Below the pieces are notes generated by a model. It was not told where the DNA came from, did no database searches, and worked only from the letters and a program-made list of their open reading frames with translations. A stretch of 64,000 bases of DNA from Bacteroidales bacterium (GTDB lineage Bacteria > Bacteroidota > Bacteroidia > Bacteroidales > UBA932): positions 1 to 64,000 of the forward strand of contig JAGCJX010000012.1 in NCBI GenBank assembly GCA_017647795.1. Direction: 5' to 3'. Below are positions 8,014-26,359 of the stretch, in pieces (the first letter of the stretch is position 1; the number at the start of each line of letters is the position of its first letter). Position numbers and translations under genes: made by a program.

Positions 8014-8991
8014 TCAGCAACCGCCACGGAGACGCTTCTCGACCATTTCCATCATGCGTTCCCGTAAAATTTCGTTCGGGATTTTCTCAAGAACGGCGTA
8101 GGCAAAGGCCAGTTGTTGGAGCAACTCGGCTTCTTTTTTCGGGATACCCCGTGAACGCAAGTAGAACAGTTCCTCCGGTTGGAGACGACCGACAGTGGCT
8201 CCGTGTGAGCACTTTACATCATCCGCATAGATCTCCAGTTGGGGATCGGTGTGGATGCGGGCTTGTTGGGAGAGCAGCAGGTTGTGGTTGGCCTGGAAGG
8301 CGTCGGTGCGTTGTGCGTCCGGTACCACCGTAATCTTCCCTGAGAAGTGTCCAACGGCCTCGTCGTCCAAAATTCCTTTGAAAAGTTGGCTGCTTTGGCA
8401 GTCCGGGACGTGGTGGAAGAGACGCAGGTGGTTGGCGATCCGTTGTTGGCCATCGGCCAGGTAGAGGCCGCTCAAGTCGCAGTTGGCGTGTTCCCCTTGA
8501 AGGTTGACTTCGATGTTGTTTTCAATGGAGGCTCCGTGCAAGGAGAGGAAGACCATTTTGAGCTGGCTGCCGGCTGCCTGGTTCACCACAAAACGGGTCT
8601 TGTGGGTGGCTTCGTTGTGCTCGTGTTGCATCACGATGATTTCCGCCTGGGCGTTGGCTTCCAATTGGATCGAAACGGTTTCCTGCGTTGAGACCGGACC
8701 TTGGGTAAAGGCGTGAGCACAGCAAAGCAGGCGGCCGAATGTGTTTTCTCCGAAGAACAACTCGTTGGAATAGGTGAGTTCGTTCGGTCCTTCATCGCTG
8801 CGGACAGCAATGACTTGCAGCAATTCTTCCATCACCTGGCCTTTTTGCAGGCGGAAGGAGAAGGACTTGCCGGTTTCTTGGACCAAACCGTCCACCAAAA
8901 ACAGCTGGCGGCTGTTTTCCAGCGGGACCCGGCAGTTGAACCGAGGGCGGTTCGGGGTGCCGGAGGCTAAGGTGTAGAGGTCGTTCATCAT
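8014..8991 (-). CDS. sufD: Fe-S cluster assembly protein SufD, short form
   Basis: Partner of SufB and SufC in the SufBC2D scaffold that builds Fe-S clusters in the cytoplasm. The C-terminal SUF core is intact, including DDVKCSHGATVGRL and FYLRSRGIPKKEAE, which carries the conserved histidine. At 325 residues it is about 100 residues shorter than common SufD proteins: the usual N-terminal helical region is missing and the beta-helix core begins almost at once. The start overlaps the sufC stop (ATGA, 8988-8991), so translation is coupled. A second ATG follows directly and could be used instead. No sufS or sufU lies alongside. Confidence 0.88.
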   Translation of the reverse strand: MMNDLYTLASGTPNRPRFNCRVPLENSRQLFLVDGLVQETGKSFSFRLQKGQVMEELLQVIAVRSDEGPNELTYSNELFFGENTFGRLLCCAHAFTQGPVSTQETVSIQLEANAQAEIIVMQHEHNEATHKTRFVVNQAAGSQLKMVFLSLHGASIENNIEVNLQGEHANCDLSGLYLADGQQRIANHLRLFHHVPDCQSSQLFKGILDDEAVGHFSGKITVVPDAQRTDAFQANHNLLLSQQARIHTDPQLEIYADDVKCSHGATVGRLQPEELFYLRSRGIPKKEAELLQQLAFAYAVLEKIPNEILRERMMEMVEKRLRGGC

Positions 8992-9734
8992 AGTTCTTTG
9001 ATCAGCCAGTCGTATCCACGTTGTTCAACTTCCAATGCCAGTTCTTTGCCGGCGGTCTTGATGATGCGGCCTTTGTACAGGATGTGTACCACGTCCGGAA
9101 CGATGTAGTCCAGCAAGCGTTGGTAGTGGGTGATGACCAAGGTTGCATTGTCCGGTCGTTTGAGGCGGTTTACACCCGTAGCGACGATGCGCAAGGCATC
9201 CACATCCAGCCCGCTATCGGTTTCGTCCAAAATGGCCAATTTGGGTTCCAACATAGCCATTTGGAAGATCTCGTTGCGCTTCTTTTCGCCGCCGGAGAAA
9301 CCGACGTTTACGCCACGGGAGGAGAAAGCCGGGTCCATTTCCACAATTTCCATCTTTTGCCGCATGAGCTTCAGGAACTCGGCTGCGGTGATGGGGGGAA
9401 GGCCTTGGTATTTGCGGTGTTCGTTCAACGCCGTTTTCATAAAATTGACGTTGGTGACACCCGGGATTTCGGTCGGGTATTGGAAACCGAGGAAGATGCC
9501 TCTCCACGATCTTTCTTCTGGAGAAAGGGCCAGGAGGTCTTCGTCTTGGTAGCGTACTTCGCCGGAGGTTACCGTGAAGGTGTCCTTGCCTGCGAGGACA
9601 GCGGACAAAGTACTTTTGCCCGATCCGTTCGGGCCCATGATGGCGTGAACTTCACCGGGACGAACGGTCAAGTTGATTCCTTTGAGGATTTCCTTATCGC
9701 CTATAGATGCGTGCAGGTCGTTGATTCGTAACAT
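8988..9734 (-). CDS. sufC: Fe-S cluster assembly ATPase SufC
   Basis: ABC-type ATPase of 248 aa that powers the SufBC2D complex. Walker A is MGPNGSGKST, the signature is GFSGGEKKRNEI, and Walker B is LAILDETDSGLD. The Q-loop region has FQYPTEIPGV, typical of SufC. The gene lies 10 bp downstream of sufB and overlaps sufD by 4 bp, so the three form one operon read on the minus strand. Confidence 0.96.
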   Translation of the reverse strand: MLRINDLHASIGDKEILKGINLTVRPGEVHAIMGPNGSGKSTLSAVLAGKDTFTVTSGEVRYQDEDLLALSPEERSWRGIFLGFQYPTEIPGVTNVNFMKTALNEHRKYQGLPPITAAEFLKLMRQKMEIVEMDPAFSSRGVNVGFSGGEKKRNEIFQMAMLEPKLAILDETDSGLDVDALRIVATGVNRLKRPDNATLVITHYQRLLDYIVPDVVHILYKGRIIKTAGKELALEVEQRGYDWLIKEL

Positions 9735-9744
9735 AATGTATGGT

Positions 9745-11181
9745 TTATCCTACGCTTCCTTCGAGGGAAACTTGCAGGAGTTTTTGTGCTTCGACAGCAA
9801 ATTCCATCGGAAGCTGGTTGATGACTTCTTTTGCATAGCCGTTGACAATCAGGCCAACAGCATTCTCTTCGGAGATGCCCCGTTGCCGGCAGTAGAACAG
9901 TTGTTCATCGCTGATTTTTGAGGTCGTTGCCTCGTGTTCAATGACCGCAGAGGGATTGTCACTTTGGATGAACGGGAAGGTGTGTGCTCCGCAGCGGTCG
10001 CCCAGCAACAGGGAGTCGCATTGGGAGTAGTTGCGAGCGTTTTCGGCGTTTTTGGAGACACGAACCAAGCCGCGGTAGCTGTTTTCGCTACGGCCGGCCG
10101 AGATCCCTTTGCTGATGATGCGGCTACGGGTGTTTTTGCCCAAGTGGATCATCTTGGTACCGGTATCGGCCTGTTGGTGGTGGTTGGTCACGGCTACCGA
10201 GTAAAATTCGGACACCGAATTGTCTCCACGCAGGATGGTGCTCGGGTATTTCCAGGTAATTGCCGATCCGGTTTCTACTTGTGTCCAGAACAGACGGCTG
10301 TTGTTGCCTTTGCAAATACCCCGTTTGGTCACAAAGTTGAAGATACCGCCCCGACCTTCGCTATCGCCCGGGTACCAGTTCTGAACGGTGGAATATTTTA
10401 CTTCTGCATCGGCCAGTACCACAATTTCCACAACCGCGGCGTGCAATTGGTTTTCGTCGCGTTGGGGAGCGGTACAGCCTTCCAGGTAGCTGACGTAAGA
10501 ACCTTCGTCGGCTACGATCAGGGTCCGTTCAAATTGGCCGGTACCCCGGGCGTTGATGCGGAAGTAGCTGGAGAGCTCCATCGGACAACGGACGCCTTTG
10601 GGAATGTAGCAGAAGGAACCGTCGCTGAAGACGGCCGAGTTCAAAGCTGAAAAGAAATTGTCTCCGACCGGAACGACCGAAGCCAAATATTTGCGGACCA
10701 GTTCCGGATAATCGCGGACAGCTTCGGAGAAAGAGCAGAAGATGATGCCTTTCTCAGCCAGGGATTCCCGGAAGGTAGTTTTAACAGAAACAGAGTCGAA
10801 GACCGCATCGACGGCCATGCCGGAAAGAGCTTTGCGTTCGTCGAGGGGAATGCCCAGTTTGTCGAACGTTTTCATCAGTTCCGGATCAATCTCGCCTTCG
10901 GTTTTCGGCTGTTTGGGAGCAGCGAAATAAATGATGTCCTGGTAGTCGATTTCGGGAATGCGCAGGTGAGCCCAGTTCGGCATTTTCATCTTTTGCCATT
11001 TACGGAAGGCTTCCAGACGGAATTCGAGCAACCATTCCGGCTCCTGTTTGCGTTCGGAGATCATCCGCACAATCTCTTCGTTCAACCCCTTGGGAAAGAA
11101 CTCTTGGGAGACTTGTGTTTCAAAGCCGTGCCGGTATTCGCTGTTGGTAATATCGTGTAGTAATTCGTTTGCTGGATTCAT
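9745..11181 (-). CDS. sufB: Fe-S cluster assembly scaffold SufB
   Basis: 478-aa main scaffold of the SUF system and first gene of sufBCD. Conserved blocks include [55 protein letters not shown] and [14 protein letters not shown], which holds the conserved cysteine used in cluster assembly. The C-terminal [20 protein letters not shown] is canonical. The start [16 protein letters not shown] fits the family. A -7 box at 11199-11206 (minus) leaves a leader of about a dozen bases and faces the promoter of the ThiL-like gene. Confidence 0.96.
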
Positions 11182-11198
11182 AATTCAAAATAAACGCA

Positions 11199-11226
11199 CA
11201 AATTTACACTAAATTTACTAATTTTG
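11199..11226. promoter_or_regulatory. Divergent -7 boxes for sufBCD and the ThiL-like gene
   Basis: The minus-strand box TAAATTTG (11199-11206) serves sufB. The plus-strand box TAATTTTG (11219-11226) lies 14 bp before the ThiL-like ATG. The two are only 12 bp apart, so polymerase binding on one strand should interfere with the other. Confidence 0.5.
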
Positions 11227-11240
11227 TAAAAAATTCAATA

Positions 11241-12230
11241 ATGAGTACACAAATTTCTGAGATAGGACGCTCGGCGACCCTGGAGCGCCTCTTTGCATCC
11301 ACAACTTACAAAAACGAAACCAGTTGGATCCAACCGGCACGTGGTGTTTCTTCACAGGCACACCGCTTCTACATGGAAGGCGTTGATTTTGACCTGACTT
11401 ACACGCCTTTGCGACACTTGGGCTACAAGCTGGTTTTGGGCGTTTTGGGAGAATTGTATGCCAAATCCCTTCAGCCGGAACGGGTATCTGTCCTCTTGGC
11501 TTTGTCCAACCGCTTTTCTTACGAACACGTGGAAACCTTGTGGCAAGGTATGGTGGCTGCGATGACCGAACACAAGATTGCTTCGGTGGGGTTGGAACTT
11601 TTGCCTTCTGTCAACGGTTTGTGTGTCAGCATGACGGCAACCGGCGTGCAGAAACGCATTGTTTTGGAGCGTCGTATGCCTTTGCAATCCAAGGATTTGT
11701 TGGTGTTGTCCGGACACTTGGGATCGGCCTACATGGGCTTGCATGTGTTGGAGCGGGAGAAGGTGGCGTTCGAAGCAAGCGGGTCCCAAAAGCAACCCGA
11801 CCTGAATGCCTACAAAGGGGTGTTGGCCGATTACCTCAGCCCGGAGATCAAGGCCGATTTGTTGTCGCGTCTGATCAAACAGGGCATTGTTCCTTCTGCC
11901 GGTGAGTTTATTACCAGGGGTTTGGCGTATTCGGCCCTCGAATTACAAAAAAGATCGGGTCTCGGTGTTAAAATTTACATCAATCGGATTCCGATCTCTG
12001 CGCAAACCTTCCAAGTCTGTGAGGAATTGGACATTGATGCGGTGACCGCAGCGATGAACGGAGGAGATGACTACAAATTCCTGTTTGTCATTCCCAACGG
12101 CCAGTACGACATTTTGCACAAGGAGTTTCCGGATCTTGAAGTGGTGGGACATTTGGCCCAACCGGAAGTCGGGGCCGTGTTGGTTACCCCCGAAAACGTG
12201 GAGATTCCCATCCAAGCCCCGAACTATTAG
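11241..12230 (+). CDS. ThiL/AIR-synthase-fold protein with degenerate active site (329 aa)
   Basis: The chain follows thiamine-monophosphate kinase closely in several places: EGVDFDLTYTPLRHLGYK, VLLALSNRFS, HLGSAYMGLHVLEREK and NGGDDYKFLF. Compared from memory with Bacteroidota ThiL, nearly every ATP/Mg aspartate motif is gone. GDDAAV is replaced by a segment without acidic residues; TTD before the EGVDFDL block is lost; the SD of NLSDIYAMNA becomes VLGELYAKSL; VGGDTT becomes VGLELL; TGDLGAAY becomes SGHLGSAY; and DISDGLA becomes ITRGLAY. The frame is open over the whole family length, so this is not a simple pseudogene. A non-catalytic paralogue with a binding or regulatory role is the likeliest reading. 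A true thiL may lie elsewhere. It is divergent from sufBCD. Confidence 0.75.
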   Translation: MSTQISEIGRSATLERLFASTTYKNETSWIQPARGVSSQAHRFYMEGVDFDLTYTPLRHLGYKLVLGVLGELYAKSLQPERVSVLLALSNRFSYEHVETLWQGMVAAMTEHKIASVGLELLPSVNGLCVSMTATGVQKRIVLERRMPLQSKDLLVLSGHLGSAYMGLHVLEREKVAFEASGSQKQPDLNAYKGVLADYLSPEIKADLLSRLIKQGIVPSAGEFITRGLAYSALELQKRSGLGVKIYINRIPISAQTFQVCEELDIDAVTAAMNGGDDYKFLFVIPNGQYDILHKEFPDLEVVGHLAQPEVGAVLVTPENVEIPIQAPNY

Positions 12231-26331: not shown

Positions 26332-26359
26332 CAAAGTTAGTATAAATTCCGTACTTTTG
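26332..26359. promoter_or_regulatory. Divergent -7 boxes of the polyprenyl synthase gene and rsgA
   Basis: Minus strand TAACTTTG (26332-26339). Plus strand TACTTTTG (26352-26359), which ends only 5 nt before the GTG start of rsgA, predicting a leaderless rsgA message. Confidence 0.55.

Follow-up and report, generated by a model that had tools for sequence, protein, structure and literature searches.

A catalytically stripped ThiL orthologue kept under purifying selection in gut Bacteroidales

Thiamine-monophosphate (TMP) kinase, ThiL, is regarded as an enzyme with one purpose and as a drug target, and predictions of the vitamin B1 self-sufficiency of gut bacteria rely on its presence. The chemistry of the known PurM-fold kinases (ThiL, PurM, SelD and HypE) needs ATP-Mg. 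Proteins of the PurM superfamily without the parent activity are already known; one is SEPHS1, which is kept beside its active paralogue SEPHS2. Bacteroides thetaiotaomicron, as is typical of Bacteroidetes, has ThiL. The metal ligands of PaThiL are D30, D47, D75 and D211, G28-D29-D30 and S213-D214-G215-L216 are further conserved residues, and G121 and T123 make the ribose and adenine contacts; the aspartate of the GGD motif is not among the four metal ligands named for this enzyme (PMC13254938). B. thetaiotaomicron also has TPK, tnr3 (PMC5613172). A search of the open literature, with most subscription journals outside its scope, found no description of a ThiL pseudoenzyme and nothing usable on the essentiality of thiL in Bacteroides.

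The window, i.e. the whole stretch of 64,000 nucleotides that was analysed (its genome is G000 below), contains a ThiL-like gene, here called pThiL, next to the suf genes. The features of this region are as follows.

8014..8991, minus strand: sufD, assigned by context
8988..9734, minus strand: sufC, assigned by context
9745..11181, minus strand: sufB, divergent neighbour of pThiL, assigned by sequence similarity and operon context
11199..11206, minus strand: TAnnTTTG (-7-like) element towards sufB
11219..11226, plus strand: TAnnTTTG (-7-like) element towards pThiL, its start 20 bp from the sufB element
11241..12230, plus strand: pThiL, catalytically stripped ThiL orthologue, 329 aa
12265..15879, minus strand: dnaE, convergent downstream neighbour, assigned by context

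The best NCBIfam match of pThiL was the thiL model (E 4.9e-32), with a score of 111.2 bits against the curated TIGR01379 cut-off of 184.15, which is thus not reached. The Pfam match was AIRS alone, the N-terminal domain of the superfamily, and the pThiL family profile matched the AaThiL sequence at about 1e-18. An AlphaFold2 model built on an alignment of 68 family members had a mean pLDDT of 93.8, a pTM of 0.91 and 0 segments below 50. Its top PDB match was AbThiL (6mfm_B; Z 30.1, 289 residues, rmsd 2.4 Å), the leading matches were all ThiL, and HypE, PurM and SelD followed; the ThiL fold of pThiL is confidently predicted to be complete. The locus type and the nested position within the Bacteroidales ThiL tree make pThiL orthologous to Bacteroidales ThiL. 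The original prediction of a ThiL-like protein with preserved framework motifs was borne out by the thiL model match and by motif alignment. A phage or mobile origin was rejected, as a PHROGs search gave 0 matches.

The PaThiL sites were mapped by motif alignment onto 26 intact Bacteroidales sequences and 97 stripped sequences. All mapped sites were retained in 26 of 26 intact sequences, except for one Asn in place of G28. The corresponding positions in pThiL are listed below.

11313..11318, plus strand: N25-E26, ungapped counterpart of GDD (Pa D29-D30); other alignments have a deletion here
11364..11366, plus strand: R42, replacing the TTD aspartate (Pa D47, metal ligand); Lys or Arg in 78 of 97 stripped sequences
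11451..11453, plus strand: E71, replacing the SD aspartate (Pa D75, metal ligand); Glu or Asp in 74 of 97
11592..11600, plus strand: L118-E119-L120, replacing G-D-T (Pa G121 and T123 contacts)
11907..11918, plus strand: F223-I-T-R226, replacing D-I-S-D (Pa D211 metal ligand, S213, D214)

Among the 97 stripped sequences the position of Pa G121 was Leu in 93 and that of T123 in 90, the D211 position was Phe in 88, and the D214 position was Arg or Lys in 72. Glu119 of pThiL stands at the position of the GGD aspartate, where Asp or Glu occurred in 90 of the 97 rows. The GDD motif was gapped or unconserved in this set. Between G9 and E46, pThiL lacks 9 residues relative to intact ThiL, and the placement of GDDA depends on the alignment (deleted, or replaced by N25-E26), the motif being absent under either. 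The metal ligands are accordingly absent or represented by E26, R42, E71 and F223, and the adenine and ribose contacts by L118 and L120. An alignment shift hiding the catalytic residues was rejected for TTD, SD, GGDT and DISDG with several alignments. The claim that five ATP/Mg motifs had been replaced without a frameshift stands as far as the motifs are lost and the frame is open, but two of the sites stay acidic (the LSD aspartate is Glu71 and the GGD aspartate Glu119). With residues mapped from PaThiL by alignment, the two leucines appear to fill the adenine pocket of stripped ThiL, and the charge of the metal site may now be balanced internally, K/R42 against E71. pThiL is probably without TMP kinase activity.

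A scan of the collection for the nearest pThiL relatives in species genomes gave 80 loci, almost all of them carrying the label of a Bacteroidales MAG from the gut of an animal and including Cryptobacteroides, Cacconaster, Egerieousia, Equibacterium and Minthomonas; nearly all genomes compared in this work are MAGs. The catalytic residues were stripped and the frames open in 80 of 80 loci, so that no decay of the frame was seen. Purifying selection was evident from the closest pairs of pThiL genes, with dN/dS of 0.03-0.14 at dS of 0.15-2.3. In a maximum-likelihood tree the stripped form was one clade (100/100). Its sister group was the partly degenerate ThiL of G019 and G022, and it branched from within the intact ThiL of its own family, with path supports of 100/98 and 99/98. 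The second ThiL of G000, G001, G006 and G028 formed a separate clade on a long branch. From this topology pThiL is the Bacteroidales ThiL inherited vertically, and the active copy has another origin. In a sample of 160 genomes of the family, no ThiL-like match of any strength was present in G182 and G127, both incomplete drafts, and given these two genomes pThiL may not be indispensable.

The overall explanation that we consider probable is that the vertical thiL turned non-catalytic and that its folded product was kept for another, non-catalytic role. Site loss, predicted fold, selection, vertical descent and replacement of the kinase are the computed parts of this explanation. With TPK able to make TPP, the kinase activity of ThiL would have become dispensable. 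The Mg and adenine sites would have been dismantled and filled (Asp to Arg, Lys or Phe, Gly and Thr to Leu), and the folded protein would have been kept by selection for something other than TMP phosphorylation. We infer dimerisation, a second role and the age of that role: pThiL would form a PurM-fold dimer without catalysis and serve as a scaffold or regulator, with the ThiL surfaces that live and dead Bacteroidales copies have in common (near residues 51-62 and 163-172) as the contact sites for a partner, and this role would predate the loss of catalysis. In the window lineage TPK is missing, and TPP is made by another, intact ThiL, encoded in a salvage operon under riboswitch control.

Gene order makes the Suf machinery a candidate for the partner. 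The gap between sufB and pThiL is 59 bp and holds both opposed TAnnTTTG elements, in agreement with the earlier statement that the promoter is interlocked with that of sufBCD. This pattern occurred 0 times in 100 shuffles of the window. The element pair was present in 29 of 34 divergent relatives at 11-22 bp, against 0.01 expected in shuffles, and the element starts were 19-21 bp apart in most divergent loci. However, 27 such divergent promoters were counted in this genome, compared with a single one in the reversed control. Promoters built this way are hence nothing unusual in these bacteria, even if this one is conserved, and the overlap as something special was rejected. A second overlapping divergent promoter, of the CAAAnnTA-N10-14-TAnnTTTG type, is located at window 26332-26359.

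The orthologues do not always sit opposite sufB, as sufB was divergent and adjacent in only 35 of the 80 loci. Genes of the suf cluster were within 6 kb of pThiL in 51 of the 80, in several orientations, and in some loci pThiL shared their strand and came immediately ahead of sufB or behind sufD. Divergent sufB-thiL also occurred with intact thiL in five other Bacteroidales families; this arrangement is therefore ancestral and older than the pseudoenzyme. dnaE was linked to pThiL in about 30 of 80 loci, and suf linkage was lost in Cryptobacteroides-type genomes. A tie to Fe-S assembly, as originally proposed, is thus suggested by the proximity of sufBCD and weakened by the ancestral arrangement, the dnaE linkage and the Cryptobacteroides-type genomes. 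The proposed tie through ThiC was not supported: ThiC was not found in the window genome, and most relatives also lack it yet keep pThiL.

A Suf function of pThiL is possible. The more specific idea that SufBCD has in pThiL a dedicated accessory protein or regulator, whose expression starts at the divergent promoter common to both, draws on the conserved promoter spacing and the frequent vicinity of sufBCD, same-strand arrangements included, and the retention of pThiL whatever thiamine genes are present argues against a thiamine-specific partner. We regard it as doubtful, since the gene order predates the pseudoenzyme, dnaE is similarly linked, pThiL lies away from suf in many genomes and this genome has many promoters of the kind. 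The loci of ten relatives contained no TPP riboswitch near pThiL at Rfam gathering scores. A PnuC-family transporter gene (TIGR01528, 97 bits) was located between sufB and sufC in L121, L137, L151 and many other relatives; such a gene is inside the suf operon of most relatives with linked suf genes and absent from that of the window. No TPP riboswitch was found near the PnuC-family gene of the suf operon.

The protein might alternatively be a re-tooled enzyme in which the old ATP site is gone and the remodelled pocket supports new catalysis or binding, with the newly fixed D49, W101, E110, D266, T316 and P317 belonging to the new site. A comparison of alignment columns between intact and stripped forms gave 52 fixed and identical columns, 12 with switched fixed states and 32 that had lost conservation. 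Four of the 12 switched columns were gapped columns of the GDDA loop; the other switches, from intact ThiL to pThiL, were H62->D49, S83->G70, Y114->W101, G131->L118, T133->L120, M233->G221, D235->F223 and E288->D276. These eight non-gap positions, several more that are fixed in the stripped clade only, and the strong purifying selection would suit a new site, but pThiL has lost the ATP-Mg site needed by known PurM-fold kinases, and similar pocket filling in independent lineages looks like stabilisation and not like one new site. Re-tooling is, in our judgement, unlikely. The pattern of the columns fits a protein under changed constraint, not one in decay.

The window genome has the second, intact thiL that had been suggested as a check, on another contig and at 328 bits. 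It is part of an operon with a TPP riboswitch, ThiM, a ThiE-TenA fusion, ThiL and ThiD (the salvage operon region, L082, G000:C28:40000-54000, and L210), and similar riboswitch operons were present in the relatives G001, G006 and G028. The same contig also carries a Thi4-like thiazole synthase gene adjoining ThiE- and TenI-like genes (named by eye). The relatives set contained 22 stripped genomes. TPK was matched in 16 of them, all without a second ThiL; the other six (G000, G001, G003, G006, G027 and G028) had a second ThiL but lacked TPK. In G018 the TPK match is split and scores below the cut-off, and in G003 and G027 the second ThiL is partial as judged from its match. With rare exceptions, stripped genomes had one of the two, TPK or a second intact ThiL, and none had both.

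TPK was missing from 24 of the 160 family genomes, four of the 24 being inferred as G187-G190. A second ThiL was present in 20 of these and a vertical intact ThiL in three (G021, G063 and G073). The remaining one, G125 (93% complete, 5% contaminated), had no TPK and no second or intact ThiL. No TPK-positive genome among the 160 had a second ThiL. Because TPK and second ThiL are complementary, stripped ThiL is not relied upon for TPP, G125 aside, and the complementarity argues against TMP kinase activity in pThiL. Genomes in which both ThiE and ThiC are missing, among them the single-contig genomes G012 and G016, also retained stripped ThiL. As it is kept without ThiE and ThiC and without TPK, its retention cannot be put down to thiamine synthesis or to TPK, and a role as partner of TPK, ThiE or the second ThiL is disfavoured, pThiL being kept where each is missing. 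In the stripped genomes of L183-L185 and L187, the TPK gene usually adjoined a large permease-type gene (LptF/LptG-like by eye), usually without an adjoining pnuT-like gene; in G013 (L186) a PnuC-family gene was immediately upstream of TPK.

It is very improbable that pThiL continues to convert TMP to TPP by means of a divergent active site. Such activity could be considered for G011, G030, G007 and G018 (L205, L206, L207 and L208), which have thiamine biosynthesis genes including ThiC and ThiE, so that TMP is made, but no other, intact ThiL. All four nevertheless have a TPK-type match, that of G018 consisting of two weak pieces in one 306-aa frame, and a TMP phosphatase acting before TPK is implied for them. 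Moreover, a second intact ThiL is nearly always present where TPK is missing, and the metal and adenine contacts of pThiL are gone. A decaying pseudogene whose loss is still pending would agree with the missing catalytic residues and with the lower conservation of pThiL compared to SufB from the same loci, but is extremely improbable and was rejected for the clade as a whole on account of the low dN/dS, the open frames, the persistence of the stripped form through a family-wide clade and the confidently predicted complete fold. By the same conservation, dN/dS and predicted fold, together with the second intact thiL and the TPK complementarity, the reading of pThiL as a selected pseudoenzyme, already put forward in the original prediction, is strongly supported at the level of sequence comparison.

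ThiL was above the cut-off in 208 of 218 genomes across the order. Dead but retained ThiL was found elsewhere in G020, in G024 and G026, in 4 of 4 genomes of family f2, and in G369 (family f75), two relatives of which, G242 and G315, have a ThiL that scores as intact. TPK was present in all of these separate lineages. Thr133 (Pa T123) was Leu, Ile or Val in every one of them, and Gly131 (Pa G121) was Leu, Ile, Val or Phe in all but G020. Milder changes occurred in G002 (D55N, D238K) and in G015 and G033 (D55E). Some degenerate ThiL score above the family cut-off, and the loss is therefore not visible from the score by itself. About 15 residues were fixed in live and dead Bacteroidales ThiL and absent from xenologous ThiL and AaThiL; their groups around window residues 51-62 and 163-172 are candidate contact surfaces.

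The case for an older second role is built mainly on repeated retention after catalytic loss. That this role is older than the loss of catalysis is plausible, with chances about even; the separate dead lineages could also have been repurposed one by one rather than exposing one old role. For the wider proposal that Bacteroidales ThiL has an ancestral kinase-independent function, possibly in Fe-S assembly, which the dead copies expose, we would put the chances somewhat below even. If it is true, dead copies reveal a hidden role of a textbook vitamin enzyme. The recurrence of dead ThiL in TPK-positive lineages makes a second role genetically testable in B. thetaiotaomicron. Annotation-based vitamin predictions could err for a gut family whose ThiL almost certainly makes no TPP.

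Compared with known systems, pThiL shares fold and descent with ThiL (TIGR01379; AbThiL 5cm7/6mfm, PaThiL 8yku, AaThiL 3c9t). It differs from the active enzyme by the absence of all the motifs GDD, TTD, SD, GGDT and DISDG, by replaced metal ligands and adenine contacts, and by its score under the curated family cut-off. TPK (TIGR01378; tnr3 in B. thetaiotaomicron), which supplies TPP in most pThiL genomes, is unrelated to pThiL and only a functional replacement. Animal selenophosphate synthetase 1 (SEPHS1; 3fd5/3fd6, 9hjt) is, like pThiL, a PurM-fold relative of an ATP enzyme, and according to a PDB entry title it is a subunit of the Zincore complex. SEPHS1 comes from the SelD branch and pThiL from the ThiL branch, and crystals of SEPHS1 bind ADP or AMPCP (entry titles), whereas the nucleotide contacts of pThiL have been lost.
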